A stretch of DNA of 43,800 nucleotides from Clostridia bacterium (lineage in GTDB: Bacteria > Bacillota > Clostridia > Oscillospirales > Acutalibacteraceae). The stretch covers positions 4,550 to 48,349 of the forward strand of contig JAUMXZ010000002.1 of NCBI GenBank assembly GCA_030528905.1. The letters run 5' to 3'. The translations under genes were made by a program, and so were the position numbers. Shown piece by piece: positions 2,065 through 22,913 of this stretch. Below the pieces are notes generated by a model that searched no databases, was not told where the DNA came from, and was given only the letters and a program-made list of their open reading frames with translations. Position 1 is the stretch's first letter; the number at the start of each line of letters is the position of its first letter.

Positions 2065-2432
2065 AAAATCACCACCTTTTAATTTCGTAATTATATTATA
2101 CCACGGGCTATCAAGGATGAACAGCAACTTGTTGTTGCTGTTTGGCAATCAAATGCTTAGTTTCCGCTCTCTATGTATGGATATAATTTCAAACACAAAG
2201 ATATAAATATTTTCACCATTTGTCCCTCGAATTGCTATGCAAACAACTCCGTATAGCAAAGCCAAGAAAATCCGTCAAGTGTCAAGATGAACGCTATGCG
2301 CCCTTGACGACTTTTCCCGCCTTTGCTGATCGGCAGACAAGAGACGCAAACGGATAAACCGCTTGCGCCTCAAAGAATTATGGGATTACTTGTGTTTGGT
2401 TGATAAACTCTGTTTTTTCGCAAAAAGACCCC

Positions 2433-2462
2433 TTGACAAATCTCGTCTCAATATGCTATATA
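2433..2462 (+). promoter_or_regulatory. possible hybrid promoter at the insertion's right junction
   Basis: TTGACA (2433-2438) lies inside the insert and TATATA (2457-2462), with an extended TG (2454-2455), lies in MATE sequence. The spacer is 18 bases. It could drive the remaining MATE fragment, but no good ribosome site follows closely. Confidence 0.4.
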
Positions 2463-3730: not shown

Positions 3731-4055
3731 GAGAAAATGAAACCATTATTAGTAATGCTATTCTTCTACATAACAAATTCAGTTCATTTTTATTCCACAA
3801 ATTTGTTTTGTCACCAAAAAAGGCAAAGAAAAAGAGTAGTCATAACATAAACCTGTTATGACTACAAAATATGGTGCAAGTGGAGAGCAGACTTACTCAC
3901 ACTCACACAAAATCAATTATTTAACAGACATTTTTATTTGAACACCTCACGCAGCGTATCTTTATAGAATTCACAAAATAGCTATTGTTTTCTTTTTTTT
4001 GAAGATGATACAATAAGTTAAAATACAGGTATCCGTAAGTATGTTAAGGGAGTGA
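3731..4055. other. intergenic region with a 12-bp perfect inverted repeat
   Basis: No gene is seen. The notable item is GTAGTCATAACA (3836-3847) and its exact reverse complement (3854-3865) around a 6-base loop. It lacks a T tract, so it is a weak terminator at best and may be a protein-binding site. The rest is AT-rich leader sequence for the next gene. Confidence 0.4.
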
Positions 4056-5111: not shown

Positions 5112-5879
5112 ATGGATAAAAAGTATAGAGACTTAATCGCACAGGAATTCCGTTCGTGTGTCAATGGAACAATTTCACGCATTAGTGAAAGCGAAACTTA
5201 TAGACCGTTTCATACCGCACTCCTTTCAGAAGAGGTGATTTTTTGGAGCCGTTTTGAAAGAAGCTTTAGCACTTCGTTCGGTCAGAGAGTCATTGAGGAA
5301 ATCGCCAAAATCGTTGCCTTGTCCAATGGAGCCGAACAGGCACAGCGTCAGAAAACAACAATTGTCACACTTGACGAAGCGTTAATTAATGGCGTTGATC
5401 AACACATCCAATCATTACGCGATGGCAAATGTACCGACCAAGGTTGGGATACAACTCTTGCTGATTTAAAGAAAATTAAATTAAGTGGTCACACACGTCA
5501 GTTACGCATAATCTCCGACCTGTGGTGGAAAAAAGATGGAATTGACCACTATGCAAGTCTTAAAACTGTAAAGCCGAACATAGACCAAACCGCCGTAGCA
5601 AAGGAAGATTGCTTGCGTTTAACATTAGCAGATCCCCAGTGCAAAGCTTATTTTGGTTTGCCATATAATCCATACGGAGAGTCAAAAACCGATTATAATT
5701 TCAACCCGCCAATGGGTATTTTTGATTTCCATAAAGACCCTGTTGTTTTGATAGGTAAAGAGATGTGGGAAACGATTGGCGGCAATGGCTGTTACGACGA
5801 AATCCTTGCGATTGCAAAAGAGGTCGGCTTAGAAACAAAAAAGAGCATTGCTGAACTTCTCAAAAAGAAAGGCAAATAA
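5112..5879 (+). CDS. type II restriction endonuclease, TdeIII-like
   Basis: A 255-residue protein that fits the TdeIII/MjaII type of type II restriction endonuclease; from memory the family cuts GGNCC. Visible marks are FERSFSTSFGQRVIEEIAKI near residue 55, and a probable PD-(D/E)XK core where ISDLWW (about 140) is followed by ASLKTVKPNIDQ (about 155). The SLK lysine and preceding acidic residue are plausible catalytic residues. Start ATG 5112 follows GGAGAAGG, and a TATAAT at 5076-5081 gives a -10 box with a poor -35. The next gene begins 2 bases after its stop, so it is cotranscribed with the ASCH gene. The partner methylase is the convergent gene at 6311-7723. Endonuclease assignment is fairly sure; site specificity is not established. 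Confidence 0.65.
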   Translation: MDKKYRDLIAQEFRSCVNGTISRISESETYRPFHTALLSEEVIFWSRFERSFSTSFGQRVIEEIAKIVALSNGAEQAQRQKTTIVTLDEALINGVDQHIQSLRDGKCTDQGWDTTLADLKKIKLSGHTRQLRIISDLWWKKDGIDHYASLKTVKPNIDQTAVAKEDCLRLTLADPQCKAYFGLPYNPYGESKTDYNFNPPMGIFDFHKDPVVLIGKEMWETIGGNGCYDEILAIAKEVGLETKKSIAELLKKKGK

Positions 5880-5881
5880 TC

Positions 5882-6289
5882 GTGAAAGTGCTTACCATAA
5901 GAGAGCCGTGGGCCAGTTTGGTTGGTTGCGGTGTGAAAATCATAGAAACACGTAGTTGGCCGACGTCTTACCGTGGAGAATTATACATACACGCAGGTGT
6001 TCATAAAATATCCGAAAAAGATGAAAGAGCTGTTCGGTTAAGCAAACTTATCCCGGATAATCGATTGCATTATGGTGAAATATTTATGAAATGTAATCTT
6101 ATTGATTGTATAAAGATCGATGAAGATTATGCAAAAAGAGTACAAGCTGAAACACCGGAAAACTATGAATGCGGTAACTACACCGCTGGGCGATATGCAT
6201 GGATACTATCAAATGTTGAATACATAGAACCGATATCAGCAAAGGGCAGATTGAGTATATGGAATTATGAGAAAAACGAGCAGTGCTAA
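5882..6289 (+). CDS. ASCH-domain protein
   Basis: A 135-residue single-domain protein with the ASCH (PUA-like) fold signature: MKVLTIREPWASLVGCGVK at the N-terminus, then ETRSWPTSYRGELYIHA and a C-terminal GRYAWILSNVEYIEPI. ASCH domains bind RNA or modified nucleotides, and some (YqfB-like) hydrolyse N4-acetylcytidine. The start is GTG at 5882, two bases after the endonuclease stop; the coupling implies a joint role. Within a restriction island it might sense modified bases or nucleotides, which is inference. It ends 22 bases from the stop of the convergent methyltransferase. Confidence 0.75.
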   Translation: MKVLTIREPWASLVGCGVKIIETRSWPTSYRGELYIHAGVHKISEKDERAVRLSKLIPDNRLHYGEIFMKCNLIDCIKIDEDYAKRVQAETPENYECGNYTAGRYAWILSNVEYIEPISAKGRLSIWNYEKNEQC

Positions 6290-6310: not shown

Positions 6311-7723
6311 TTAATCAAATAAGGTTAACTGTTCTGCAGCGTTATTCGTTGCAGAGATTTTTGCCAAAACAGCTTCCATTTGCGAACACCACGTTACATC
6401 ACTGGTGTTTTTATAGCGCGAAAACTCATAACTATTATGATGCTCATCGGGAGTGCCATTCATATCGTTTATAATAGTACGCGCAATTGCTTCTCCTAAT
6501 CTTATAGGAACAGCATTTCCGATTTGCTTATATTGCTCCAATACAGGACCGCAAATTTTCCAATCCAAGGGGAATCCTTGGATACGACTATATTCTTCGA
6601 CACTTAACGGCCTATCTAATGTTGGATGACACAAATCAGTTGCGGGCATGGTGGGGTTTGTCACCAGTGTAGGCGAAGGTCTGTCAAATTTAAGCCTTCT
6701 CAAAAATCCTGTTTTACCGCCACCTAATTGCAATTTGCTTCCCATTGCTTCTACTTGTAAATCTGGAGGTAAATCTTTCCAATACTGACCCTCTTTTAAT
6801 ATACGATAAAAACGAAGGCGTTTTTCAGGAAATTCAATATAATGGTGTTCAGTATTATCCGGCAGTTCATCTAATGCCTCTCTTAAGGTTCTCCAGGGTT
6901 CAAGACCATTGTTTCCGTTTTCCGCGTGTGTAGGCGTGAGATACGCAACCTTTTCCTTGCCTAATTTACCGATCATAACAACTCTTTCTCGGATTTGAGG
7001 AGCACCATAATTCGCTGCGTTATAAAGGTTGAAGCTGACGGTATAACCAAGTTCTTTTAATTTATCCAGTATTACCAACAATGCGCCACCCTTGATTGGT
7101 TCGGAAAATTCTTTGTAAGGATAGGTTGCGGATAATAATCCTCTTACATTTTCTATCACTACATATGTAGGTTTAATTTCCCCGACAATTTCAAGATATC
7201 TCAAAAAAACATTTCCTCGAGCATCTTCAAAGCCCTTTCTGTTACCAGCGGTACTAAAAGCTTGACAAGGGGGGCCACCGAAAATAACATCTACCTTTGT
7301 TCCCTCGGGCAAATTGGCCATTTTCATAATTTCTTTTGAAGAATACTTTTCGATATCGCCAATCAATGCAATGTCAGGGTTGTTTTTTGCTATTGTCATA
7401 CGGCAAAATTTATTAAATTCGCAAGCTAACACTGCATCAATGCCACCGTTTTTCATTCCAATATCAAGGCCCATTGCACCAGAGAAAAAGCTCATAGCGA
7501 CAATTTTGGGCAGCACAAGACTCTCTCTCATTCTATCGTCCGGTTCTATCATAACATCATTATCACTAATGTAGGCTTCAAGTGCACTTTTGGAAATGAG
7601 CCATTGACTTCCGACTCTTTCAGCCGGGAGGTTTTCATTTCTAATAAGCGTTCTTACGTGTTGGGTTGTTACTTTCAGAATACTTGACGCTTCATTTACA
7701 GTAATAAAATCCGACAAAGGCAT
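6311..7723 (-). CDS. DNA (cytosine-5) methyltransferase with N-terminal HTH
   Basis: A 470-residue C5-cytosine methylase that transfers methyl from SAM to DNA. Residues 5-52 are an excisionase/MerR-like HTH (VNEASSILKVTTQHVRTLI). The methylase follows: motif I FSGAMGLDIG (80-89), motif IV GGPPCQAFS with the catalytic Cys (153), motif VI ENV (191-193), motif VIII QIRERVVMIG (243-252), IQGFPLDW (381-388) and motif X QIGNAVP (400-406). The extreme C-terminus QLTLFD resembles a sliding-clamp-binding motif. It has its own promoter (7767-7795) and lies behind a terminator that ends the helicase operon. It could be the partner of the TdeIII-like endonuclease, the DruM of a Druantia type II system, or both. 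Methylase identity is certain; the recognition site cannot be read from sequence. Confidence 0.93.
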   Translation of the reverse strand: MPLSDFITVNEASSILKVTTQHVRTLIRNENLPAERVGSQWLISKSALEAYISDNDVMIEPDDRMRESLVLPKIVAMSFFSGAMGLDIGMKNGGIDAVLACEFNKFCRMTIAKNNPDIALIGDIEKYSSKEIMKMANLPEGTKVDVIFGGPPCQAFSTAGNRKGFEDARGNVFLRYLEIVGEIKPTYVVIENVRGLLSATYPYKEFSEPIKGGALLVILDKLKELGYTVSFNLYNAANYGAPQIRERVVMIGKLGKEKVAYLTPTHAENGNNGLEPWRTLREALDELPDNTEHHYIEFPEKRLRFYRILKEGQYWKDLPPDLQVEAMGSKLQLGGGKTGFLRRLKFDRPSPTLVTNPTMPATDLCHPTLDRPLSVEEYSRIQGFPLDWKICGPVLEQYKQIGNAVPIRLGEAIARTIINDMNGTPDEHHNSYEFSRYKNTSDVTWCSQMEAVLAKISATNNAAEQLTLFD

Positions 7724-7766
7724 AAGGTCTAATCTCCGTTTCGGTCACGAATATTTGTTAAGTACC

Positions 7767-7795
7767 ATTTTAACATATAACCTCAAAATTTGCAA
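7767..7795 (-). promoter_or_regulatory. promoter of the methyltransferase gene
   Basis: On the minus strand TTGCAA (7790-7795), a 17-base spacer and TAAAAT (7767-7772) lie about 45 bases before the ATG at 7723. The methylase can therefore be expressed separately from the helicase operon upstream. Confidence 0.6.
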
Positions 7796-7850
7796 GTGCA
7801 TATCAATATTTCGCCTTGAGTTTTTACATTTAATATTTAGAATTAAAATC

Positions 7851-7887
7851 AAAGGCCAGCCTACCCATTACGAGTAAGCTGGCTTTT
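7851..7887 (-). terminator. terminator of the helicase operon
   Basis: On the minus strand AAAAGCCAGCTTAC pairs, with one wobble and one mismatch, with GTAGGCTGGCCTTT, then T-rich sequence follows. It starts 16 bases after the helicase stop. Confidence 0.6.
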
Positions 7888-7902
7888 GTGAGTTAAGCTG
7901 AC

Positions 7903-10900
7903 TTATTTTTCTACTGCCTCTCGAATTATAGCGTCCACTTGAGGGAGAGCATATTTTATGCTCTTGTCGGATACGGCTATTGCATCTTGAGGTATCGACT
8001 TTGAATACTTATTCCACATTGCCGGATACACATATATTCTGGTTTTTTGTCCGTTGCATTCGACATAGTGATTAGTACCGTCACGAGATATTTGATAGCG
8101 TGGACTCAATCTTCCAAGCGGTTTTAGCAATTCATCTTGCTGCCTATATGTAAGAGGTGCCGCAAGTGCTGAATTTTTACACCACTTCAAAAGTTCCAAA
8201 CCTGCGAAACGATCCAACTGAGTATGAACACGTTGATTCCAGAAATGTTGCAGACAATCATGACAAGCGCTGTCACACTTCTTGGGACAATATTCAAGTA
8301 CTTTTTCTGTTTCTTTTAACAGTTTGGACGTTTGCTCGGAGAGCGTTGCGCAGTAACCAGCTCCGCTCGAAAGGCTGTCAAACAAGAAAACATCGACATA
8401 AACCAATCGCTTATTGTAATCATAACGAATTCTGTAACCACTTTTAATTTCATTAAATTCGATATCCAAAATTCGTCCAGCGGCCAGTACCATAGCCTCT
8501 GCTACAGATTGACCTGCTCTCTTAATCCATAAGCCTGCAGTTTCTGTGTTTACCTTGTATGGATCTAAAGCCATTTCGAACACAAGAAGGTCAGTGCGGA
8601 ATTGGTGTCCAAGATATGTATTGACAATTCTCGTCGATGGATGTCTGCAAATCGTATTGGGATGTAACGGATGGCGATAAGGTTGGTTTACTCTTTGATT
8701 TGTAAATTCAGCTTCATCGTCGCCCGGTACGGCTGCTCCGCAATCTTGACAAACCATAAATCCTTTTTTCTTTGGACCCATATTTAAAATGATAAGCGGG
8801 TCATCAGAACGCTTTGCATAACGTACATTGGCGTAATCGGAAGATGCTATCATTTCATCTTCTTTGGGTGTAATTGAATAGCTGGGAGCCTCTGCGTATG
8901 AAAGATCTGCTTCTGCTTCCGCTTCCTTTGTGGGTCGTCCATTTATAGGAGCGAATCCCCAAGGCTTGAGCATTTTTTGTTCAACAATAGTTTGCTTTCC
9001 GCAGAAAGGACATGATGCAAAATAATCCAATCCCATCCAGTTACAAGAAGAATCACTGCAGTAATATAATGTCTTAAAATAATCCTTACTATCAAAGAAG
9101 GGGCGTGCAGGAGTTTCTTGCTCGCCAGCGCGGAATTTGGAGTGGAAACTATATACACCACCAGATTTATAGGTTGTTTTATTAACAACAACCAATCTTC
9201 CGGGTGCGTATTCACTAATTGCCATTTCCAAAGCTCTGTCTGGCTTTTGATCAACTTTATCACCTTTGAAGTTTTCAATATGGAAGCCAACCACGTCTTT
9301 GGGGAAAGAATATGTTGGGAAAATTCCACTTTCCAAAAGAACGTCAAGAACGCTTTTTTCTGTGTTATCATCTTCCTTGTATTCATCCGGGAAATTTTCA
9401 ACACTTTCTTTTAGCGATTCAATCTCTTCCCAGAATGTACGTTTGTACTTTAGGATATCTATGCTGATATCAGCGGGTAAAAGCGACTTGAGTTCTGCTT
9501 GTGAAAAGTTCTTTCCTTTGATAAAACTTTTAAATCTTTCATACATATCCCGGAAGAATTCCGAAATGCCAACTTTATCTGCACCACAACTAATACTATC
9601 GAAGAATTCTGTAAAGCAAATAACATTAAGATGGCGATATGCTAATTTATGGTTGTTTGCATCAATCCAAGGCGTTCTGGGTTCTCCTGAAATAATGCTT
9701 TCAGGGTGATGAAAATAAAAACTATCGTGCGGTCTATTGTCAGTAAAGGTTACAATAGTTGAAATAGCAGCACTCCTTCGACCGGCTCTACCAGCTCTTT
9801 GTTGGTAGTTCTCTCTCATAGGTGGAATATTGCGTAATCCAACAGCGGTCAAAGATCCTATATCGATACCGACTTCCATCGTTGTTGTACAGCTTAAAAC
9901 ATCAACGGGGCGGTCATTATCGATGTGAACATTTTGGAATCGCATTTCAAAATCTTCAGTAGTAGACCATGTTTTCTGACGTTGATCTTTATGAGAAAGC
10001 TGAGCTGTATGCTCTTCGGTATTGATTCGTGTCATCAACGCCTGTGGATCACCGTGGACAGCACGTATAACCGGGTCTCTCCAGAAGTTTATACCTGCGA
10101 AATCTTTTTCGTTCATAAGCTTAGGCTCGCCTTTGCCACAATGAGCACATTTACCCCATACAGTGAACGAGAAAATGCCACTACATCGAGGGCACTTAAA
10201 CCAGCTATGTTTTTCATCAAAACGCAAAGTTACCATATCTAAGTTTAGATATTTGCAAGGAGTATTTTTACCTTGTTGCAAGAAAAGAGATAGTGCCTCT
10301 GCTACAGCATTAATCTGTTCTGTGCCGTATCCTTGTGCTTTCAACATCTTTTTAATTCTGGGTGGTAATTTCTTGTCATCCTCAACACCCAAACGCTGAT
10401 GATAGGCCGTTATTATTCTTCTGACGTCATCTGTGATTTCTGAACCCAAAGCATATTCCGAGGTCATGATTTCCATCGCCCACGCGGAAAAGAGCACTTT
10501 GAATTCTTCAATGCTCATAGGAACATTTGAATCATCAAATATATCTTCGATTTCTTCAAAAGTATCATCATTATCGTCATAAGGTTCGAGCCAACACATA
10601 CCGACATCTGTGAGAGATCTGAAATTGCTGCACATTTGTCGTAAAAGATGCTCGTAAAACTGATCCGGTACGGTTTTGAACTTGGTATGAGAAACACGTT
10701 CATAGTTAATGTTGTCGCCTTTTTTCTCGTACAGTTTTTGCATTTCCTCCAATGCAGAGAGCAGGTCTGTTTCGTTATTACCATAAAAGAATCGCAACCC
10801 GTTCTTATACGCCACTTTCAGGAAAACCGCATAGAGGAGATTTAATGTTGGAGCTTTGTGCTCACATGCAGCCCACTCCTGAAGTTCTGCAGCCGCTACA

Positions 10901-13167
10901 GTTAAAGCCTTCTTCATAGCATCTTCATCTGCGGCACGCGTTAAATCTTTGGCCAGTACTGCAGCCCTCTGTCTGCTATCAGAAAAGAGAAGAACTTTAC
11001 GACCGGCATTTGGAAGTTTGCTATATTTAGGGACTGGTGGTTGAACATAAAACTGCTCTGATACAAGGTTGAAAAACGGTTCGTTACCCTTGGTTGAAAA
11101 GTCAGTTGCTTCAAAGTGGTTTTTTGCATATTTGGGACAACTTCTAAATGTAAGGATATCCGGGCGGCCTTTAACCTCTTTATTGCAGTAAGCAACAGGA
11201 ATAAAATATGCGTCACCAGAATGATCTTCGATACCGCTGTGCAAACGACCGCTAATTGTATTTAACCAACCTGTTTTTATATCACCCTTCGGTTTCGGAA
11301 AAGAACCGTCGCGGGGCAAAATATAGAAATGTACTTCCTTAAAGTTCTCGTCAGGCTGTACTCCAGGCATAGTCCAAACAAAGGGCTCCTTGGTTTCGGT
11401 TGTGTCAATATATCCGCGCAAGAATAAGGCTCCGCAAGCACGTTCGTTTAACAACTCATATACCATACCACCGCATTTGCAACGTGTTCCCGGATTGTTT
11501 AGGTATATTTTTCCGAGTCCTAACTCGGGATTGTGGTATGTTGTTTCGCTGCAATTTGGGTTCGTGCAGGCATACAACCCCTGTAAGCCACGGAACATCA
11601 TGTGCAGACGTGCAGGATATAACACTTGTCCATTTTCACTTTTTGCCAACGGTGCGATAGCGAGTAAAACACTTACAGCTTTTTCTGCTATTTCAGGATG
11701 AACTCCCGGAAAAACGTGTTCGGACAATTCTTTTAGACTTGTTGCATGACCACGAGTTTTCTCCATAATAGAGAGCATTGGATCCAATGAACCAAGCAAT
11801 TTGTAAAGCCATACACTTACAGAAGTTTCGCTATCAAAATCACAGTCACAGGGAGCCTTTATTAACTCTGCAAATTTGCGAAGTGCGTCGCACTTTTCTG
11901 CCCAATCTTTTTGAAGTTCATCGATATCGTAATCCGCAAATATTGTAGGATCAAATGTGAATTGTGTATGCGTGATAGGCTCGGTTTTGCCAGTAATCAA
12001 CTTAAAAGTATTATTTTCAAAAGCCTGCGCACTTAAATCGCAAGCGAATTTTTTGACTTTTTCCTGTTCTGCTGGTGCAGACGGGATACTTGCACTCGTT
12101 AAAATAAACTGTACTTTTTTTCTGTCAATACCTAATTTATGAAGCACACGCCGAATTAACAAAGATACTTCTCCTCCGGAAGAACCTCTATACATATGAG
12201 CTTCATCTATGATGAATAACAGTTTGTTTTCAGGATTACTGTTAAGCCAAGAAATAGTACTTTCCCATATGTTTTTCTCAATGGGACGCATAAGCATATA
12301 TTCCAGCATTGAATAGTTGGTAATTAAAATATCGGGGCAATGCTGTTGCATTTCTTGACGCATAATAAGCTCGGCGTCATCGACCGCTGTTAAATCGCTT
12401 TCATTATTCTCTAAACGCTCGATAAAGGCAAGCAAATCACTTTTGGAAGGAAACTTGCCCAACTCAACCAATTTTTCTTTTACCTCTTCGGATTGGTTTA
12501 GCAAATCTTTTCGGAGAGTCGCCGCATATTTTTTGTTTTCATCTGCATTGGGGTTTCCAGGATAAGGCGTACGACCGGTGTACGTTCCAAACTGAGGAAC
12601 ACGACTTCCGGGAGCCAAACTCTCTACAAGGTTGTGAAACCCGTTTTCTCCGTTTCCGATCATTCTTCTCAAACGTCCTAATTGGTCAGAAACAAGAGCG
12701 TTCATAGGGTATAGCATAATGGCGCGAACTCCACGAACCTTCCACGTTTGAGGAGAATTCATCTGTTCACGAACAATTTTGCTAACCATCGGCCACATAA
12801 AACATTCCGTCTTACCGGAACCAGTGCCAGTTGCAACAAATAAGTCATTGCCATTATAAAATTCAGTCAATGCATCAACCTGGTGCTTATATGGGTTTGG
12901 AAATACTCCGAGCCCCCTTTGAATCATACCTGTTAAAATTGTTTTTACATCAGCGGGAATCTCACTTTTTGCAATGCCATCAAGCATTGTGAGATACGCC
13001 GGATTTGCTTCAATAAAGGGCTCTTGGCTTAGAACACCGATTTTTTGGAGTTCTTCCTCGCAGGCCTCACGCAAAAAGTCGTTTTTTCCGAGGTACACGG
13101 TATTTATGTAATTAAGCAGTTTGTTTCGCAAAGCATCATATATGCTTTTGACACCGTATTTATCCAT
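7903..13167 (-). CDS. giant DEAH helicase with DUF1998-type C-terminus (DruE-like)
   Basis: A 1,754-residue SF2 helicase. Walker A GTGSGKT is at about 114-120, DEAH at 321-324 and motif III SAS near 358; the second RecA domain has TTTMEVGIDIG and QQRAGRAGRR (about 1130-1170). The long region between and after holds zinc clusters (CPRC...CAHC, CSDSSC...CPFC, CQDC). The C-terminus has the four-Cys DUF1998/MrfA-like pattern CPKKCDSACHDC. Size and layout match DruE of Druantia. ATG 13167 (GGAGG upstream, ATGGATAA overlap with the preceding gene) is preferred over 13185. It is the last gene of the minus-strand operon. DISARM DrmA is an alternative, but no DrmB or DrmC is present. The helicase call is certain; DruE is likely. 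Confidence 0.85.
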   Translation of the reverse strand: MDKYGVKSIYDALRNKLLNYINTVYLGKNDFLREACEEELQKIGVLSQEPFIEANPAYLTMLDGIAKSEIPADVKTILTGMIQRGLGVFPNPYKHQVDALTEFYNGNDLFVATGTGSGKTECFMWPMVSKIVREQMNSPQTWKVRGVRAIMLYPMNALVSDQLGRLRRMIGNGENGFHNLVESLAPGSRVPQFGTYTGRTPYPGNPNADENKKYAATLRKDLLNQSEEVKEKLVELGKFPSKSDLLAFIERLENNESDLTAVDDAELIMRQEMQQHCPDILITNYSMLEYMLMRPIEKNIWESTISWLNSNPENKLLFIIDEAHMYRGSSGGEVSLLIRRVLHKLGIDRKKVQFILTSASIPSAPAEQEKVKKFACDLSAQAFENNTFKLITGKTEPITHTQFTFDPTIFADYDIDELQKDWAEKCDALRKFAELIKAPCDCDFDSETSVSVWLYKLLGSLDPMLSIMEKTRGHATSLKELSEHVFPGVHPEIAEKAVSVLLAIAPLAKSENGQVLYPARLHMMFRGLQGLYACTNPNCSETTYHNPELGLGKIYLNNPGTRCKCGGMVYELLNERACGALFLRGYIDTTETKEPFVWTMPGVQPDENFKEVHFYILPRDGSFPKPKGDIKTGWLNTISGRLHSGIEDHSGDAYFIPVAYCNKEVKGRPDILTFRSCPKYAKNHFEATDFSTKGNEPFFNLVSEQFYVQPPVPKYSKLPNAGRKVLLFSDSRQRAAVLAKDLTRAADEDAMKKALTVAAAELQEWAACEHKAPTLNLLYAVFLKVAYKNGLRFFYGNNETDLLSALEEMQKLYEKKGDNINYERVSHTKFKTVPDQFYEHLLRQMCSNFRSLTDVGMCWLEPYDDNDDTFEEIEDIFDDSNVPMSIEEFKVLFSAWAMEIMTSEYALGSEITDDVRRIITAYHQRLGVEDDKKLPPRIKKMLKAQGYGTEQINAVAEALSLFLQQGKNTPCKYLNLDMVTLRFDEKHSWFKCPRCSGIFSFTVWGKCAHCGKGEPKLMNEKDFAGINFWRDPVIRAVHGDPQALMTRINTEEHTAQLSHKDQRQKTWSTTEDFEMRFQNVHIDNDRPVDVLSCTTTMEVGIDIGSLTAVGLRNIPPMRENYQQRAGRAGRRSAAISTIVTFTDNRPHDSFYFHHPESIISGEPRTPWIDANNHKLAYRHLNVICFTEFFDSISCGADKVGISEFFRDMYERFKSFIKGKNFSQAELKSLLPADISIDILKYKRTFWEEIESLKESVENFPDEYKEDDNTEKSVLDVLLESGIFPTYSFPKDVVGFHIENFKGDKVDQKPDRALEMAISEYAPGRLVVVNKTTYKSGGVYSFHSKFRAGEQETPARPFFDSKDYFKTLYYCSDSSCNWMGLDYFASCPFCGKQTIVEQKMLKPWGFAPINGRPTKEAEAEADLSYAEAPSYSITPKEDEMIASSDYANVRYAKRSDDPLIILNMGPKKKGFMVCQDCGAAVPGDDEAEFTNQRVNQPYRHPLHPNTICRHPSTRIVNTYLGHQFRTDLLVFEMALDPYKVNTETAGLWIKRAGQSVAEAMVLAAGRILDIEFNEIKSGYRIRYDYNKRLVYVDVFLFDSLSSGAGYCATLSEQTSKLLKETEKVLEYCPKKCDSACHDCLQHFWNQRVHTQLDRFAGLELLKWCKNSALAAPLTYRQQDELLKPLGRLSPRYQISRDGTNHYVECNGQKTRIYVYPAMWNKYSKSIPQDAIAVSDKSIKYALPQVDAIIREAVEK

Positions 13168-14179
13168 TATGACCCTCCGTAACACTCATTCCTAAATTAT
13201 TTAATTTCCTCTTGATTTCATCCAGCAAACAAAGAGGAAAATTCCACTCCAAAACATCGTTAATGTTCCGACTTGGCCAAGCATAGGACTCCAGAAAAAC
13301 TCTCATTTCATAAGGCAAATGTGTCCATAAATTTAGAGTAGCGTGGTCATTATGCTTTGTTATTCGAGTCGGTAAAGGTGCGTTAGCTTTCTTGCGAAGA
13401 GCAAACATCATTTTACGGTGTTCTTTGATCTCCAATAAAAATGGATCTATTTTGTGGTGATAAATGTTTTCGCCTTTGACTTTTTCGAGATAATACTCAT
13501 ACATTGTTTTGTTGATTGTTATTCGTATAAGCCGTATATTCTGGAAGAAATCAACTTCATTTTTTTGCCAACAAGAATGTATATTTTTTGCATTTTTAAC
13601 ACAGTTGAAATACTCAATACTATCATTTTTAATGCGCCCATTTTCCCACCAAGCTGTTTTGCAAAACTTATCGAACCAATCAACCGCTGTTTCATCATCG
13701 TTAGCAACATCTTGATTTGTACTTTTCCTAATAGCGGAGAGTCCTGAATAAAAAATGCCACCATCAAAAAACACACCCGTGATTTGCTCGGCCTCCAGAC
13801 CGATTGGATACGTAGCACTCGATGTCGTAATCATATTAGTATCAAAGCCAACATTTATAAGATCTCCGTTTTGAACTAAACGACGGCGAATGATACGAAT
13901 GGGATCTTCGGATTTATCATCCATATAGAACCAATATTTTATCTCAGGGTAGCGTTCTAACATAGCCGATAAAAGTTTCTCGGTTTTTTCGTAAATATGC
14001 TTTTTGCTTACACCTGTATCAATATTCTTATCTCCGATGTTACGATCAAGGGCGGCGGCTTTAATCCAGCAAGCTGTTGCAGAATACAAAATACGTTGCA
14101 CGAACTCTAAATCGGTTTCACTATTATATTTTGCTATATTCATGTCCGTTGCCATTGCTGCGATTATTTCGCCCCTCAT
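13160..14179 (-). CDS. uncharacterised defence-operon protein (339 aa)
   Basis: A 339-residue, probably soluble protein. I recognise no domain. Visible features are a helical N-terminus, an aromatic central part (KYWFYMDDKSEDPIRIIRRR), a Gly/aromatic FFDGGIFYSGLSAI segment and a basic region KEHRKMMFALRKKANAP. ATG 14179 is chosen because GAGGTGA lies 6 bases upstream; a GTG one codon earlier is possible. The gene begins 11 bases after the 689-aa gene and overlaps the helicase gene by 8 bases. Such tight coupling indicates a subunit of the same system, possibly an adaptor for the helicase. No catalytic motif is evident. Confidence 0.7.
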   Translation of the reverse strand: MRGEIIAAMATDMNIAKYNSETDLEFVQRILYSATACWIKAAALDRNIGDKNIDTGVSKKHIYEKTEKLLSAMLERYPEIKYWFYMDDKSEDPIRIIRRRLVQNGDLINVGFDTNMITTSSATYPIGLEAEQITGVFFDGGIFYSGLSAIRKSTNQDVANDDETAVDWFDKFCKTAWWENGRIKNDSIEYFNCVKNAKNIHSCWQKNEVDFFQNIRLIRITINKTMYEYYLEKVKGENIYHHKIDPFLLEIKEHRKMMFALRKKANAPLPTRITKHNDHATLNLWTHLPYEMRVFLESYAWPSRNINDVLEWNFPLCLLDEIKRKLNNLGMSVTEGHNG

Positions 14180-14190
14180 CACATATCACC

Positions 14191-16260
14191 TCACAGGTAG
14201 TTGTTTAGAATATCAATATTTATATTATTCTCACTTAACCAATCTCTCATTTGCTCCGTCTTATAACTTGCTTTAGCTTGAACGCATAGTTGTAATAAAA
14301 GCAACCAATCCTTATGAATATCACATTCAATATCAACCATAAAGCTTGCATATTTGGATGCGGCAACTGCACTGATAATTCCGGCGTCCACAAAAGGATT
14401 CAGTTTTTTCTTTTGTTTACAAAGATCGACTTTGCTGTATACTTTTATGAAAATCGAATGGTGCGCACTATAACAAGTCAATTCTTCACCAGTTGGGAAG
14501 TTGTAACCATAACCGCTGTCTAAAAACATCGCTTTTTCGTACACAGTTTTGGGGATTAGGCTCGTGTCCGCTCCGTCTAACGAGAAAAGAACAACATATC
14601 CGGCGTTTGCAAAATGATACCGGATAGCGTTAAAATGTTCCAATGAAAAGCCGGAGAAAGCTCCATTCACCAATATAACCATATTGTCGTTTTTGTTTTC
14701 GACAATCGAAATATAGTCGGTAGCGTTCATTCCCGAACCTATATTTACAACTGAAACATCCGTGCCATACATTGCGGCAACGCATTTCGCAATTTCATCT
14801 TCATTGGATGTTACCAAAATAGGCAACTGTGCAGAAATGCTATGGGAAATCAACTGTGCCATTGCATCAGCAACAGTATCTTCATACCCAACCGTAATTA
14901 AATTATCCGCCAAAGCTTCCTGGAAATCATCATAGTCATTTATCTGCTCTTTGTCACCAGACGCACCCGTTTCAATAGTGCAAAGATCTATTGATTTTTG
15001 TTTTCCGCTACCGCTACCGATTGCACTTTGAGCTATAGCGCACAAAGCGGTACTATGGACGATATTCTCTTTGAAATTTTTCAGTTCGGTTTCGATATCT
15101 GCTTGAATTTTAATAAGCTCTTCTTTTTTTGTTGCAACAGCGGTTTCGAGAGAAGAAACTTCACTACTAATAGCATCTCTCTGTTCTTTTTTTGTTAGAA
15201 GATCAGCCTCACATTCAGTACACGTCTTTTTAAGTTCGGCTATTTCATCCAATATCTGCTGCTTTTCTTGTGATTTTTCTTCGAGCCAGGCGGTCCTTAC
15301 GAGTTCAACAAAACGCTCGTGCATAGACGGATCCTGTGTCAAGCATCTTTGCAAAATTGCATCGATCGTAGAATCACCTAAAAGACTCTCGACGATAATT
15401 TGCTTATATTTGGGCAACAATTCTTTTAGCTGAGCATCCGTAAAACCAGTAATCGCAAAAAAATCACGAATGTATTCGTTATCATTCAGGATAACTTCGA
15501 GAACATCTGTAATTTTGCGAATGTCATTAAGACTAAACTGAAGAGTGCTTTTGTTTTTCTTGATATAGTTGGATACAAAAGTAGGAACATATTTGCTGAA
15601 TGCAATAGGATGGAAAATGCCAATGCGATCCGGCAAAACAGTAGAGTTGTAAAAATATCTAACCGGTGCTTTATATCTACTCGGCAAGGAAATGTGACAC
15701 GCAGACGAATCGATTATATCAGCGTCTACAATATCATACTCCTCCAAATAATGCACCGAGTGAAGCATATCGCGCGTATTTGAAGACACCGCGAAAACGC
15801 CATCTCGTACCTTCTTTAAGTCGCGTTTTCTGCACAACAGGAAAGCATTATGCGAACCCGATTTACCAATAGCGATAAGAATATTATCGCTTATATTGTC
15901 ATCCATAGAGAATCCTTCGCACAAAATCCTTCGTATCTCGTTTGTATCCGAATAAGGAACTTCGCTCAATTCTTCAGGGAATATCATTTCATAAACAGTT
16001 CCGTCATAACTATAAGAACGAGTTCTTCCTGGGTCTTCTGCATCATATTCCCACTCCCTTAAAGCGGTCATGCCAGGATAAATATCTCTCGGATGTGCAC
16101 CTATGCGTTTAGGTGTTTCACCGTATTCTTCCTCATAAAAAGGAACTGCTAATAGCTTATCATCGTCCGGATAGTAATCCGCAATTCTAAACAGAATGTT
16201 ATAGTCCGGGTTATTATAATTTGGATATGTAAGGCATAACGAAATCTTAGTATCATTCAT
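14191..16260 (-). CDS. uncharacterised coiled-coil defence protein (689 aa; DruF/DruG candidate)
   Basis: A 689-residue protein with an N-terminal mixed domain (1-230), a helical stretch, a long charged coiled coil at about 326-400 (LDEIAELKKTCTECEADLL and onward), and a C-terminal alpha/beta domain (about 440-640). That domain has beta-strand-like hydrophobic runs (ILVTSNEDEI, NMVILVNGAF, YVVLFSLDGA) reminiscent of a P-loop or Rossmann fold, but no Walker A motif is visible. The start at 16260 has GAGGAAC upstream and lies 1 base after the previous stop. In Druantia type II two proteins without known domains (DruF, DruG) accompany DruE and DruM, and this is a candidate for one. That assignment rests on size and context only. 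Confidence 0.7.
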   Translation of the reverse strand: MNDTKISLCLTYPNYNNPDYNILFRIADYYPDDDKLLAVPFYEEEYGETPKRIGAHPRDIYPGMTALREWEYDAEDPGRTRSYSYDGTVYEMIFPEELSEVPYSDTNEIRRILCEGFSMDDNISDNILIAIGKSGSHNAFLLCRKRDLKKVRDGVFAVSSNTRDMLHSVHYLEEYDIVDADIIDSSACHISLPSRYKAPVRYFYNSTVLPDRIGIFHPIAFSKYVPTFVSNYIKKNKSTLQFSLNDIRKITDVLEVILNDNEYIRDFFAITGFTDAQLKELLPKYKQIIVESLLGDSTIDAILQRCLTQDPSMHERFVELVRTAWLEEKSQEKQQILDEIAELKKTCTECEADLLTKKEQRDAISSEVSSLETAVATKKEELIKIQADIETELKNFKENIVHSTALCAIAQSAIGSGSGKQKSIDLCTIETGASGDKEQINDYDDFQEALADNLITVGYEDTVADAMAQLISHSISAQLPILVTSNEDEIAKCVAAMYGTDVSVVNIGSGMNATDYISIVENKNDNMVILVNGAFSGFSLEHFNAIRYHFANAGYVVLFSLDGADTSLIPKTVYEKAMFLDSGYGYNFPTGEELTCYSAHHSIFIKVYSKVDLCKQKKKLNPFVDAGIISAVAASKYASFMVDIECDIHKDWLLLLQLCVQAKASYKTEQMRDWLSENNINIDILNNYL

Positions 16261-16261
16261 T

Positions 16262-17881
16262 TTATAAGTTCCTCCTCAGAGTGCTTAAATAAATCGCAAG
16301 CTGTTCGTTAATTTTTCCGTCTTTGAGTACCTGTTTCAAAAATGCACCCAATTGATGCAAACTATGAATATCACACCAATGAAACAGTTCTTTAATCCAT
16401 AGCGGTGCTGTAATAACAGAGCCTCTTAAATTCTTTTTCGCCTCAGATAACAGTAATTGTTCATCTATATCCAAATCTTTTTGAGGTGCGTTAACAGCAA
16501 AGGAATGAAAAATCACATACCCATATGGAGAGGATTCGTATGAGAAAAACATTCTTTTTAGTCCCTTGTATGGTTCTAAAGTGGTCTGCGTATCAACAAT
16601 CGGTATGGTTTTGAACACGTGATTTGCAGATTCAAAAACGGCAGAAAACTTTGTGTTGGTTCTAATATTTATGCCATCCTGCAATATGTTGGCATCTACA
16701 AACAGTGTTGTGTCAATTGTTTCTTCGTTTTCTGTTGACAAAACAATATTGTGAGATGCCACAGAACGAATAGGGGATGTTTTTCGGATACTAATTTCTC
16801 GACCAGTATATTTTCTGTCGACTGACACAACAGTTGGCTCGAAGCTATACACGCCCAGTTTGACAGTTTTATTATTATGATAATCTTCGTCAACTGGAAT
16901 TTGTCGTACATCTTTTCCGCTGTAAGTGAAAACTTTAGGGGTGCTATTACCGCTTTCCACACCACAATAAACAGTTGCCTTATTCGAGAAAACCAATTGA
17001 TCACCATGATCAATTATGGGCGGCCAAAGAGGTAAAACTGTCGCAGCCTTTTCCAATAGCCAAACCTTAAACCTACTGTAAAAGTAACTGTTAATGCTAT
17101 TGAAACGACTATTTTCAACAGAAACATTTATGCTAAAAATATACACTCCATAATCGCTGTTGTTCAAATGTATACGCCCAATTTTGCGAGTGCGAATTTC
17201 TTGATAAAACGGTCTGAAATCTTTAGCTATTAAATAATACTCTTTTTCGATGGTGATACTGTCACCACGTTTGATTTTTTTACCAAAGTTATTATGTATT
17301 GAAAAAATTGCACCTTCAGAAGAAAACCCGTCAGCATAATCGGACCATTTCTTTTGTATTGCATAAGCTCCAACACCGGATATTTCAATGGTATAATTTT
17401 TTCCATAATACGGAATGAAGTCAATAGGAATAGGCGTTATTTCATCCGCATAGAATTGCGACGGTGTAACTGGAACTGTTAACTTGCCATTAATGGATAC
17501 TGTAAGTTTATTGTTATAAGCCTGCTGAAGGCGTTGTTCTCCAAGCGCTGGGAATGCAATATTGAGATTATATATATCTCCGTATTTGCGTGTGATATAT
17601 ATAGGGAGACCTGTTCTTTCGTAAATATGTAAATCAGAATTCCCGTCTACTCGCTTATCGCACTCGGGAGAAAAATCGGTCTTCTTTTGGTGATAGAAGA
17701 CATCTGGTTGCTGACCTCCGCGGCAACGCCAAAAAACCTTTTCTTGACATTCTGGACAAAAGAAACGATCGTGTTTTCGCGGGATGTATCCACCGCGATA
17801 TTGTTCATATATGTCGGATGCAGAAACTTCAATTTCTTTACCTTCTCGATCATTAACGAAACGGTCAATAGCATATTTCAC
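16262..17881 (-). CDS. uncharacterised defence protein with N-terminal CoiA-like Cys/His cluster (539 aa)
   Basis: A 539-residue protein. Its N-terminus has a putative zinc site: FCPEC (Cys 42 and 45), WRCRGG (Cys 53), VFYH (His 64) and SPEC (Cys 74), followed by LHIYERTGLPI. This resembles the zinc-ribbon module seen before the nuclease domain in CoiA-like proteins. The rest is beta-rich, and I see no PD-(D/E)XK motif. The start is GTG 17881 with GGGAGGTG upstream. It is the first large gene of the operon behind the XRE gene and is followed by the 689-aa gene after 1 base. It is a candidate DruF/DruG equivalent and may sense or bind DNA; that is inference. Confidence 0.7.
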   Translation of the reverse strand: MKYAIDRFVNDREGKEIEVSASDIYEQYRGGYIPRKHDRFFCPECQEKVFWRCRGGQQPDVFYHQKKTDFSPECDKRVDGNSDLHIYERTGLPIYITRKYGDIYNLNIAFPALGEQRLQQAYNNKLTVSINGKLTVPVTPSQFYADEITPIPIDFIPYYGKNYTIEISGVGAYAIQKKWSDYADGFSSEGAIFSIHNNFGKKIKRGDSITIEKEYYLIAKDFRPFYQEIRTRKIGRIHLNNSDYGVYIFSINVSVENSRFNSINSYFYSRFKVWLLEKAATVLPLWPPIIDHGDQLVFSNKATVYCGVESGNSTPKVFTYSGKDVRQIPVDEDYHNNKTVKLGVYSFEPTVVSVDRKYTGREISIRKTSPIRSVASHNIVLSTENEETIDTTLFVDANILQDGINIRTNTKFSAVFESANHVFKTIPIVDTQTTLEPYKGLKRMFFSYESSPYGYVIFHSFAVNAPQKDLDIDEQLLLSEAKKNLRGSVITAPLWIKELFHWCDIHSLHQLGAFLKQVLKDGKINEQLAIYLSTLRRNL

Positions 17882-17913
17882 AGGTTCACCTCCCTTGGAT
17901 TATTCTCAAGCAC

Positions 17914-18123
17914 TTATTTGTTGTCGGGAATTACCTCTACAATATCTCCCATATCGCACTGTAGTGCAGTACAAATACGAACTAAAACTTCAGTATTAAC
18001 ATTTTCATCGTGACCAAGTTTGGCCATAGTTCCTCTGCTAATACCGGTTGCGGCTATTAAATCTTTCTTTTTCATTTTGCGATCAATTAAAAGTTTCCAA
18101 AGTTTATTATAACAAACAGCCAT
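17914..18123 (-). CDS. small XRE-family regulator of the defence operon
   Basis: A 69-residue single-domain Cro/CI-type HTH (KKKDLIAATGISRGTMAKL) with the C-terminal pattern ICTALQCDMGDIVEV typical of the YozG-like group. It has TGAGGTGA before the ATG at 18123. It is the first gene of the minus-strand operon, 32 bases before the 539-aa gene, and probably represses the operon's own promoter. Such controllers often limit expression of toxic defence genes; that role is inferred from position. Confidence 0.85.
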   Translation of the reverse strand: MAVCYNKLWKLLIDRKMKKKDLIAATGISRGTMAKLGHDENVNTEVLVRICTALQCDMGDIVEVIPDNK

Positions 18124-18243: not shown

Positions 18244-18272
18244 TTGACTTTCTTCCCTGTTAGAGTGATATA
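18244..18272 (+). promoter_or_regulatory. promoter of the DUF4314 gene
   Basis: TTGACT (18244-18249), a 17-base spacer and GATATA (18267-18272), followed by AAAGGAGG and the ATG at 18300. It is divergent from the XRE operon promoter. Confidence 0.5.
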
Positions 18273-18299
18273 TGGTACACCGAATAAAGGAGGAAGGTT

Positions 18300-18530
18300 A
18301 TGTTTAACATTAGAAAAGAAACATTAGAACGCTTACGAAAGGCATACCCCACAGGGGCAAGAGTGGAACTTGTGCAAATGAGCGACCCGTACAAAACCAG
18401 GTTATTTCCAGGTGCGAGAGGGACGGTTGTTTTGGTAGATGATATCGGAACCGTTCACGTTCGGTGGGATTGTGGTTCATCCCTTGGTGTGGTTTATGGT
18501 GAAGACCTATGTCGTGTCATTAAAGAATAA
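18300..18530 (+). CDS. DUF4314 small protein
   Basis: A 76-residue protein with the DUF4314 pattern: GARVELVQMSDPYKTRLFPG, then GTVVLVDDIGTVHVRWDCGS and a C-terminal YGEDLCRVI. It is a small beta-barrel-like domain common on Firmicute mobile elements, with unknown function. AAAGGAGG precedes the ATG. It is divergent from the defence operon and convergent with the XRE gene at 18669-19091, with a shared terminator between, so it may mark the left part of the mobile element. Confidence 0.85.
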   Translation: MFNIRKETLERLRKAYPTGARVELVQMSDPYKTRLFPGARGTVVLVDDIGTVHVRWDCGSSLGVVYGEDLCRVIKE

Positions 18531-18614
18531 TCTACAATAATTTTACCACAGCATTCATTTTGCCGTTGTTATGAATTTACAAAAGGCTGTTATGATTTAG
18601 GCTCTAAAAATGAA

Positions 18615-18655
18615 AAGTTCCTCAGAGCATATTACATGTATGCTCTGAGGAACTT
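18615..18655. terminator. bidirectional terminator
   Basis: A perfect 17-bp stem (18615-18631 with 18639-18655) and a 7-base loop, with T-rich sequence on both strands. It separates the convergent DUF4314 and XRE genes. Confidence 0.85.
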
Positions 18656-18668
18656 ACTTTTTATACTC

Positions 18669-19091
18669 TTATTTACTCTTATTTATGCGAATGCTCAATG
18701 CAATATCTTCCGTGTTACATATGCTCTGCTGCTCATGACAGCGGAGCTTTTCTGCTTTTATAAGGCTTTCGACAGCAGTTTTGCCATACTCATCAAGGGA
18801 AAGATATGCCATTATGATTTCTCTGAATTGATCCTCTACTTCCCAACGACCGAGCTGATCAATGTCTTCTTCGGTAAAACGAGGAGATGATGCATCATTG
18901 GAATAACCCAAAATATAATCGATACGTTTATCAAAAATATCGGAAAGGCGATTTAATGTTTCAAAGTTCGGTTCTCGCTTACCGATCTCCCACATTGCAA
19001 CGGTTCCTTTAGAAACACCCAATGCCTCTGCAAGCTGCACCTGGGTCATGTTTTTATCTTTTCGTAACTCTTTTAATCTTTCAGCAAACAT
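18669..19091 (-). CDS. XRE-family repressor of the mobile element
   Basis: A 140-residue protein. Residues 1-65 are a Cro/CI-type HTH (MTQVQLAEALGVSKGTVAMW, then GKREPNFETLNRLSDIF); the rest is helical with DEYGKTAVESLIKAEKL near the C-terminus. The start at 19091 has GGAGGTG 7 bases upstream; the frame from 19127 would begin within the promoter region. It is transcribed away from the excisionase-primase operon, the usual position of an immunity repressor in temperate elements. Repeated TGTGAG/CTCACA half-sites lie in the shared control region and are likely its operators (inference). Confidence 0.85.
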   Translation of the reverse strand: MFAERLKELRKDKNMTQVQLAEALGVSKGTVAMWEIGKREPNFETLNRLSDIFDKRIDYILGYSNDASSPRFTEEDIDQLGRWEVEDQFREIIMAYLSLDEYGKTAVESLIKAEKLRCHEQQSICNTEDIALSIRINKSK

Positions 19092-19114
19092 AATTTTGCA
19101 CCTCCGATGTATCA

Positions 19115-19143
19115 ATAATACCACCATCTGTGAGTTTTGTCAA
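19115..19143 (-). promoter_or_regulatory. promoter of the XRE repressor with operator half-site
   Basis: On the minus strand TTGACA (19138-19143), a 17-base spacer containing CTCACA, and TATTAT (19115-19120). The half-site in the spacer suggests autorepression. Confidence 0.75.
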
Positions 19144-19206
19144 TGGTTTTCTCACTAAATAAGATACAATACGAAAAAATATTTTAACAAAGTGTGAGAT
19201 TTGCTA

Positions 19207-19262
19207 TTGACAGAGATAACTAAATGTTGTATCATATAGAACGAAATCTCACAGTTAGTGAG
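19207..19262 (+). promoter_or_regulatory. early promoter and operator of the mobile element
   Basis: TTGACA (19207-19212), a 17-base spacer and TATCAT (19230-19235). Just downstream CTCAC-N5-GTGAG (19248-19262) forms a palindrome over the start of the transcript. Further half-sites lie at 19151-19155 (CTCAC) and 19192-19198 (TGTGAGA region). This is a lambda-like divergent switch in miniature. Confidence 0.75.
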
Positions 19263-19440
19263 TTTCGGCATTCCTTGACAACTGAATACCCTACACGCAA
19301 AAGATACACAGAAATTAAATGCCACGACGCTGCAAACGGTCCCACCCGAGCGTATCTGTGCAAACGAGGAGTCCTCGAGCAGGAGGCTACCCCGGAACCA
19401 TAGCGTTGTAGGCCAAAACAAACCAATACTAAAGGAAGGA
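19263..19440 (+). ncRNA. candidate structured RNA leader upstream of excisionase-like gene
   Basis: About 180 bases without a gene lie between the early promoter and the first ORF. CCACGACGCT (19322-19331) can pair with AGCGTTGTAGG (19402-19412) with one wobble and one bulge, enclosing a hairpin CGAGG-AGT-CCTCG (19365-19377) and other GC-rich segments. AGATAC/GTATCT can add another helix. The region is markedly more GC-rich and structured than the other leaders here. I do not recognise a named RNA family. It could be a regulatory leader, a replication primer or a recombination-related RNA. Confidence 0.45.
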
Positions 19441-19451
19441 GTTAAATCATT

Positions 19452-19634
19452 ATGGAAAAATCAACAATGAGCGTTCAGGAGTTATCCGCTCACATGGGTA
19501 TCAGCCTACCGAAGGCATATGAGCTTGTGAAAGAACCAGGATTCCCAACACTCCGTATCGGCACTCGCATCTTGATTCCGGTTGAAGGTTTTAAGGCTTG
19601 ACTCCGATCAAAATCCGAAAGCGGTGATGAATAA
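19452..19634 (+). pseudogene. excisionase/AlpA-like HTH protein with in-frame TGA
   Basis: The frame begins MEKSTMSVQELSAHMGISLP and continues KAYELVKEPGFPTLRIGTRI, an excisionase/AlpA-type helix-turn-helix DNA-binding protein. It reaches TGA at 19599-19601 after FKA, giving 49 residues. Reading on gives LRSKSESGDE and TAA (19632-19634), which overlaps the ATG of the next gene as TAATG. In this family the position is normally Trp (FKAWL-type), so TGG has probably become TGA. The overlap with the next gene supports the longer original frame. AAGGAAGGAG is upstream. The shortened protein keeps most of the HTH and may still work. It would direct excision with the serine recombinases or control the operon. 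Confidence 0.7.
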
Positions 19635-21895
19635 TGAATGAAAGTATCACCGTGTATTACGCCGATGTATGCGGCAACCCACAAAACTGTCAGTATCCCC
19701 ATAAGGGAACGGCATCCGCTCCCGAACAGTTGAAACGCTGTATGGCTCGGGATCACGTGTTCATCCGTTTTGACGGCAACTACCGAAACAGCAAGAACTT
19801 CGAAGAAGCCGTTACCGCTGTTTTTGATTGCGATAACGACTTTACGGAAAATGCTGCGAAGTGGATTTCCCCGGAAGATATCTATCGGCTGTTTCCCGAT
19901 GTTTCGTGTGCGGTCAGCACCAGCTGACACCATATGAAACAGAAAGGTGGCAAATCACCACGTCCCAGGTTTCATGTCATCTTCGCAATCGAACCTATTA
20001 CAGACCCCGCCGAATACACCGCTTTTATGAAGTCGGTACAGCAGATGTATCCCTTTTTCGATGACAACGCCTTGGATGCCGCCAGGTTCTTTTTCGGCAA
20101 TCCCGATACCGAGGTTACATTCTTTGAAGGCAGAACTACCTTAACCGCATTCATTGAAGAGAAGTCTGCGGAGAGGGCGTTTGCCGAGCTGGGCGAAACC
20201 ATTATCGAAGGCAGCCGTAACAACACGATGTCCCTCTTCGCAGGAAAATTGCTTAAGCGGCTCGGAGATACAGATGAGGCACACAATAAATTTCTTGAAC
20301 GCGCCGAATCTTGCACCCCACCTTTGGAGGATGGTGAGCTTGAAACCATATGGCAAAGCGCCAGAAAGTTCTATAAGAAGGTGTGCTCTCAACCGGGATA
20401 CATTGCCCCCGAGGAGTACAACGCACCCTCACCGATGAAGTGGGAAATGCCGATACCTTTTGAAAAAGCAAACCTACCGTCTTTTCCGATAGAGGCTTTG
20501 CCGAAGGTTGTCCGTGATTATGTAACAGCGGTAACAGAAAGCACACAGACTCCCGTGGATATGAGTGCTTCGGCGGCACTTGCCATTCTTGCGCTGTGTG
20601 AACAAGGAAAGTTCCGCATTCGCGGCAAGTCGGATTGGACAGAACCGCTGAACCTTTTTGTGGTAGTGGTAGCGGAGCCTTCAGAACGAAAGAGTGCCGT
20701 CATCAGCTTAATGACCCGTCCCATAAATGCATTTGAAGCGGACTATAACCGACAAAACGCAGCCGAACTTGAAAAAAGCAAAATGAACAAGAGAATCTTG
20801 GAACGTCGGCAAAAAGCCCTGGAGGACAAAGCTGCCAAAGGCAAAGTTGAGGATGGTGAGTTGGAGCAATTCGCACAGCAACTTGCTGCGTATAAGGAAA
20901 AGACACCTCTTCGTTTGTATGTGGATGATGTAACCACCGAAAAGCTCACCGCTGTTTTAGCAGACGGCGGCGGTAAGGCGGCCATCGTATCTGCCGAGGG
21001 TGGTATCTTCGATATGCTTTCGGGCATTTACAGCAAAAACGTCAATATCGACGTTATGCTAAAAGGTCACTCCGGCGACAGTATCCGTGTGGACCGTATC
21101 GGCAGAAACAGCGAAAGTATTATGAATCCTGCGCTGACGGTTCTGCTTATGGTACAGCCGAATGTGTTGTCGGGAATGATGCAAAACGGCACCTTCCGTG
21201 GCAGAGGCCTTACGGCAAGATTTCTCTATTGTATGCCCAAATCCATAGTCGGCAACCGCAGATACAGGATCGAGCCGATTCCGGCAGAGATAGCAAGGCA
21301 ATATGACCTGCTTATTCGCAATCTCCTGGAAGAGGAACAAGGTGAAACTCCCGAGGAAATAACCTTGACCCCGGAAGCGGATGAAATGCTTGAAGCCTTT
21401 TCCTACGAGGTGGAAGCCAAATTGAAGACCGAATATGCGGATATGGCGGATTGGGCAGGTAAGCTTGTCGGTACAGTCCTCCGCATTGCAGGTGTTTTAT
21501 GCCGAGCCTCGGTTTATCGCAACAACGGATTCTTGGAATCTGTCGAACCCTTGATGGTGGATGAACCCACAATGCAAAACGCTATCTCAATCGGCAGATA
21601 TTATACAGAGCATTCCGCTGCGGCATTCTCCCTTATGGGTGCAGATGCCCTGGTAAAGCAAAGCGAGTATATGCTGGATGCCATTTGCAAAAGCGGTCTT
21701 ACGGAATTTACTCGCCGTGACATTATGCGACTTTGTCGCAGTTTCAAAACAGCCGATGAAGTACAGCCGGTACTGAACCACTTAACCGAATACAGATACA
21801 TTGCCCCTAAAGCGATCGACTCCCAAAACAGCAAAGGCAGACCTGCCGGTCAAACCTATCTTGTCAATCCTTATCTCTATGAGAAAGCATCATAA
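19634..21895 (+). pseudogene. DUF3987 primase-helicase, split by in-frame TGA
   Basis: Two frames in the same register, 19634-19927 and 19934-21895, together encode about 753 residues of a replication protein. The N-terminal part (FDCDNDFTENAAKWISPEDI, then PRPRFHVIFAIEPI) is primase-polymerase-like. The C-terminal half is a DUF3987 ATPase with Walker A-like AEPSERKSAV, Walker B-like LYVDDVTTEKL, SAEGGIFDMLSG and RGRGLTARFLYCMP. The break is TGA at 19925-19927 between STS and HHMKQKGGK. A CGA-to-TGA change (Arg in SRHHM) is the simplest explanation. No further stop occurs in 1.9 kb. Reinitiation at ATG 19934 would give a helicase without an intact primase domain. The role is replication of the excised element. 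Confidence 0.75.
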
Positions 21896-21900
21896 ACAAG

Positions 21901-22307: not shown

Positions 22308-22335
22308 GAAACAAATAATAAAAGGAGATGTAAGT

Positions 22336-22680: not shown

Positions 22681-22687
22681 TGCAGAT

Positions 22688-22860: not shown

Positions 22861-22913
22861 GGGGTATTAACCCCAAAATCAAACAAACCAAAATTATGGA
22901 GGTATTTTATACT

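Follow-up and report, generated by a model that had tools for sequence, protein, structure and literature searches.

A 43,800-nt stretch of a Clostridia bacterium genome (contig JAUMXZ010000002.1, positions 4,550 to 48,349; hereafter the window) carries a compact set of minus-strand genes around a very large helicase, which raises the questions of which defense system they encode and whether the C5-cytosine methylase lying beside them is part of it. The preliminary description took the set for a Druantia type II-like operon. We consider it probable that the locus holds two neighboring DNA-targeting defenses, namely the core operon of Druantia type I without DruA and a self-contained type II restriction-modification (R-M) module, the latter likely with a target of the GGNCC group.

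Against PADLOC profiles, the helicase matched DruE1 with 1879 bits (residues 7-1758), compared with 668 bits for DruE2, 619 for DruE4, and 42 (8e-12) for DrmA. Its GTGSGKT (at 120), DEAH (at 327), and QRAGRAGR (at 1129) motifs are intact, and it contains the MrfA zinc-binding domain PF09369 (1.7e-8). The profile search groups it with DruE and not with DISARM or MrfA (YprA), so that its earlier placement in the Druantia family was borne out; it has the DUF1998/MZB helicase superfamily in common with DISARM and MrfA, but its DrmA match is weak and no DrmB or DrmC partner was found among the neighbors scanned. The proposed type did not survive the same comparison. Druantia type II (DruM-DruF-DruG-DruE) resembles the window in its large YprA-type helicase and nearby C5 methylase, and the DruE2 score together with a DruM2 score of 265 bits for the methylase would be in keeping with a type II variant. 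However, the DruE1 score is far higher, no window protein matched the DruF or DruG profiles of PADLOC, the partners are DruB, DruC, and DruD, and the methylase scored best with MTase_II (356 bits) and belongs to a separate R-M module with its own endonuclease. Profile scores and neighborhood tests thus ruled out type II, to which we assign next to no probability. Type IV (DruE-DruF-DruL; PADLOC, PMC8565338) is, like the window, a variant without DruM, but the window lacks DruF and its DruE4 score is only 619 bits.

The three partners, previously described as having no recognized function and as possible grounds for a new subtype, turned out to belong to the known type I families DruB, DruC, and DruD. 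The 539-aa DruB had no direct PADLOC match, and other members of its family match DruB1 down to 7e-266; DruC, which matched DruC1 directly, has family members that reach this profile at E=0. On these profile and family relationships, the set is assigned to the Druantia type I families in the canonical order B-C-D-E. Type I (DruA-B-C-D-E; PMC7251935 after Doron et al. 2018) has the DruB, DruC, DruD, and DruE families and their order in common with the window, which differs in that no DruA was found genome-wide, an HTH_26 gene stands at the head of the operon, and an R-M module adjoins it. We therefore class the operon as a type I-like variant that lacks DruA and treat the adjoining type II R-M module as a separate system.

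DruB carries an N-terminal zinc site in which C42, C45, H64, and C74 are invariant across 57 sequences. In its predicted structure (pLDDT 88.8), residues 278-459 resemble Ig/filamin-like folds with Z of 6-8, a likeness that may reflect a common arrangement only. A nuclease role for DruB was considered and rejected: the weak CoiA_N match spans the zinc part only, and the remainder matched Ig-like folds, subject to the caveat just given. For DruC, a first Foldseek pass returned nothing below 1e-3, and the AAA+ call comes from a second structure comparison, in which the C-terminal domain of the model aligned over 230 residues with 2r44, a putative ATPase (Z 12.2, rmsd 3.8), and with numerous AAA+ chains at Z 9-11. 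Because a Walker A motif is absent from all 50 DruC family sequences inspected, the modeled protein probably serves as a scaffold and not as an ATPase. DruD had no PDB relative by profile search. For type I DruE, a Vsr nuclease domain has been reported that is inactivated (PMC12458937), and no nuclease was recognized in DruB, DruC, or DruD; both points count against the mechanism preferred below.

The reading frames reported earlier all exist on the minus strand near the positions given for them when ORF coordinates were checked (Table 1). The HTH, druB, druC, druD, and druE genes form a tight operon, with intergenic distances of 32, 1, 8, and −26 nt in that order; DruE is 1760 aa long from a GTG start and 1754 aa from an internal ATG. 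The B-C-D-E order on a single strand is kept in most of approximately 80 independent loci, so the block is beyond chance, and the neighbors do co-occur with the helicase. The claim of one tight minus-strand block holds for these five genes and fails for the methylase, which lies farther downstream, separated from druE by 179 nt that contain a terminator-like hairpin and a promoter-like site for the methylase (both consensus matches only). The methylase is convergent with an ASCH-domain gene and a TdeIII-family endonuclease gene, both missing from the preliminary description.

Table 1. Features of the Druantia core operon and the adjoining R-M module (window coordinates).
Feature	Position	Strand	Evidence and remarks
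HTH_26 regulator (putative), 69 aa	17914..18123	-	PF13443 2.2e-22; heads operon
DruB, 539 aa	16262..17881	-	CoiA_N-like zinc-binding N-terminus and Ig-like beta domains; assigned via family members
DruC, 689 aa	14191..16260	-	Long coiled coil and AAA+-like C-terminal domain; DruC1 1.3e-6
DruD, 340 aa	13160..14182	-	PADLOC DruD1 7.3e-23, residues 5-338
DruE type I, YprA/MrfA-family SF2 helicase	7903..13185	-	DruE1 1879 bits, residues 7-1758
Terminator-like hairpin, druE/methylase interval	7855..7883	-	Consensus scan only
Promoter-like site of methylase	7795-7767	-	Consensus match only
C5-cytosine methylase with N-terminal HTH_17	6311..7723	-	PF00145 7.6e-63; R-M module member
ASCH-domain gene	5882..6289	+	PF04266 4.5e-5; same place in L158, 52% identity
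TdeIII-family type II restriction endonuclease	5112..5879	+	PF09520 1.2e-44; L158 enzyme 67% identical

Relatives of the methylase at 69 and 52% identity occur in two viral contigs, L158 and L159. In a 6.8-kb stretch of L158 the same R-M module is present (methylase 69% and endonuclease 67% identical to those of the window) with no Druantia gene in that stretch, ordered as the methylase followed by convergent ASCH, SinI-family, and TdeIII-family endonuclease genes; in L159 the neighbor of the methylase is a SinI-family endonuclease. Since no Druantia gene accompanies the module in the L158 stretch, and the module brings an endonuclease of its own, the methylase is best read as an R-M enzyme and not as the DruM suggested by the earlier reading. 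The methylase, ASCH, and TdeIII-family genes are accordingly predicted to form a self-contained type II R-M module. The ASCH-domain gene is common to both copies of the module (window 5882-6289, L158 1777-2184), and in L158 the SinI-type and TdeIII-type endonucleases (2181-3768) have one methylase in common. No relatives of the window endonuclease were found on the plasmids searched.

The prototype specificities of Eco47II, EcoO109I, TdeIII, and SinI make up the GGNCC/GGWCC group. The window module probably belongs among the type II R-M systems of this group, from which it is set apart by its place next to DruBCDE and by its ASCH gene; the SinI-type gene present in L158 is missing from it. A target of this group is likely from the family prototypes and on sequence grounds: the stretch GG(K/R)xG..RRL...PS.T..T.P in the target-recognition region is common to the three methylase types found beside such endonucleases, and relatives of the methylase adjoin SinI, Eco47II, and EcoO109I enzymes. 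The TdeIII family itself does not fix specificity, because two further genomes of the host family hold TdeIII-family enzymes that are only distantly similar, are paired with amino-methylases, and occur without Druantia.

DruA (PF14236) gave 0 matches in the 1.42-Mb genome that contains the window, with all of the positive control genomes (G300-G302) matched, and no tblastn match at the window locus. Loss of druA could point to a decayed, inactive type I system, yet all reading frames of the operon and the helicase motifs are intact, and the DruA-less BCDE set is stable across diverse relatives: 71 of the 90 entries in a DruE tree form one supported clade, mostly of gut anaerobes, in none of which DruA was found when the flanks were examined. 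Decay is therefore very unlikely. The 12-entry sister set of this clade has DruA in 6 of its loci, and the tree pattern on DruA is matched by eight additional loci taken from separate sets of genomes. L148-L152 are five bare BCDE sets without DruA, L154 holds BCDE with a Dam-like methylase, and L155 belongs to the sister type and has DruA close by; in L153, DruE has an internal stop and DruB, DruC, and DruD were not found. The window is thus atypical for type I in that DruA is missing both here and throughout a large clade. Type I is defined by five genes and most of the relatives sampled lack DruA, so that definitions requiring DruA may misfile or miss them.

Two side observations concern these relatives. 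In G302, the genome of L097, four identically scoring PF14236 matches lie elsewhere in the genome, as expected of a transposable element and not of a defense gene. In L078 (Anaerobiospirillum), BCDE is followed by an additional B-C-D set, suggesting tandem Druantia cores.

Whether the R-M module is more than a neighbor was addressed in 83 related type I loci, 21 in the branch of the window and 62 outside it. A GGNCC-group endonuclease adjoins BCDE in 13 of the 21 branch loci and in 0 of the other 62, counts that refer to related, not independent, loci sampled by DruE similarity. The 13 endonucleases belong to the Eco47II (9), EcoO109I (3), and TdeIII (1, the window) families, and are accompanied in the branch by three methylase subfamilies. 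In most R-M-bearing relatives the genes share a strand in the order M-R-B-C-D-E, and the endonuclease gene ends approximately 15-70 nt before druB. Pairwise identities diverge between modules and cores: L116 and L044 are 53% identical in DruE and 29% in DruB, with 80% for the methylase and 83% for the endonuclease; L116 and L039 are 73% identical in DruE and 46% in DruB, with 37 and 20% for the two R-M enzymes; and L047 and L044 have values of 74% for DruE, 38% for the methylase, and 20% for the endonuclease. These divergences indicate at least three R-M replacements or gains, and on such comparisons the R-M modules and the BCDE core have been exchanged independently.

This pattern bears on two alternatives. 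According to the first, which we regard as unlikely, the genes are chance neighbors in a defense island on a mobile element and the R-M module hitch-hikes. The window does lie in or beside an element with a DUF3987 protein, a phage capsid, and two serine recombinases, and GmrSD, Schlafen, or caspase genes lie close to the cassette in other members of the branch. Mere proximity, however, sits poorly with the finding that, within this clade only, one R-M group was recruited repeatedly to the position directly before druB and on its strand, with the endonuclease replaced. According to the second, the locus would be one integrated system with the methylase and endonuclease as functional parts of Druantia, in which DruBCDE recognizes self by GGNCC methylation or requires ends that the endonuclease produces. 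The clade-limited counts argue for such integration, as do the rarity of these endonuclease families in genomes of the host family (Eco47II 13/300, TdeIII 3/300, EcoO109I 3/290), the M-R-B-C-D-E arrays of relatives such as L037 and L044, which run on a single strand with gaps below 40 nt, the retention of the presumed specificity while the endonuclease family was swapped, and, in the sister clade, a solitary Dam-like methylase that immediately follows druE. Against it, the module of the window occurs without Druantia in the L158 stretch and here lies downstream, apparently as its own transcription unit; 8 of the 21 branch loci lack such a module (at least two of them cut by contig ends), as does the bare BCDE clade; and the amino-methylase partners of TdeIII-family enzymes elsewhere leave the specificity unfixed by family. 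We judge integration unlikely as well.

In the sister clade, the Dam-like D12 methylase directly follows druE in 10 of 17 entries, without these endonucleases. Dam-like D12 methylase loci comprise L081, L082, L084, L085, L087, L091, L092, L099, L112, L113, and L154, and the L081 enzyme is closest to PD-Lambda-5_B of PADLOC (2e-112). No recognized methylase lies within the flanks of the bare BCDE clade, from which it follows that an R-M partner is not obligatory. In the literature found, no pairing of Druantia with these R-M families appears beyond a domain table. What is new here is a BCDE core that lacks DruA and is accompanied by exchangeable methylase or R-M modules, the type I families themselves being known.

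Under the preferred reading of two neighboring defenses, the endonuclease would cleave incoming DNA without cytosine methylation, and host DNA would be protected by the methylase. DruE would be an ATP-driven YprA-family helicase acting with DruB, a putative zinc and Ig-like adaptor, DruC, in which a coiled coil is joined to a presumably ATPase-dead AAA+ scaffold, and DruD; the DruBCDE proteins may target foreign DNA, or intermediates of its replication, and bring replication to a halt, and the HTH protein would repress the operon. Ends cut by the R-M enzyme may feed DruE, or the two systems may act separately. Druantia III DruE engages ssDNA-containing intermediates and shows synergy with another defense system via shared DNA intermediates (PMC13192584), and by analogy with this synergy co-operation of the R-M module and BCDE is plausible. 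The R-M module and the core of the window have the appearance of separate transcription units, unlike the six-gene M-R-B-C-D-E array of relatives. A bolder generalization, which we doubt and offer as a conjecture, is that the DruBCDE set, when DruA is missing, forms a modular core for DNA targeting that is dependent on or potentiated by an exchangeable methylation module. The constant of the branch would then be the GGNCC mark and not the enzymes, with three unrelated or distantly related endonuclease families of the same presumed specificity recruited in turn; the sister branch would use a Dam-type mark, and DruBCDE would read the mark or process cut ends. The repeated pairing of BCDE with one presumed R-M specificity offers a testable handle on how Druantia I discriminates self from foreign DNA.

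The XRE controller of the preliminary description corresponds to the HTH_26 gene, whose ORF spans 17914-18123 and so accounts for the end coordinate given there; its position and its conservation at the head of the operon support the claim. Stand-alone HTH_26 homologues occupy the position directly before druB in bare-clade and Dam-clade loci (L051, L053, L149, L152, L085, L087, L099), and in L047 a stand-alone HTH_26 gene precedes the methylase. The protein is also homologous to the N-terminal HTH of Eco47II-type methylases, to which it is fused there. All of this fits a putative Cro/C1-type regulator of the operon. The 152-aa XRE gene at 18669-19127 was rejected as the controller, being neither conserved with the operon nor on the same side of a strong 18-pair two-way terminator-like hairpin (18615-18655) that divides it from the defense genes.

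Beside the defense genes, positions 18250-27454 hold a mobile element with a small plus-strand gene, an XRE repressor, a DUF3987 primase-like protein, an HK97-type capsid, and two back-to-back serine recombinases. No flanking direct repeats longer than 12 bases were found around it. The element is possibly a capsid-bearing phage satellite or a prophage remnant.
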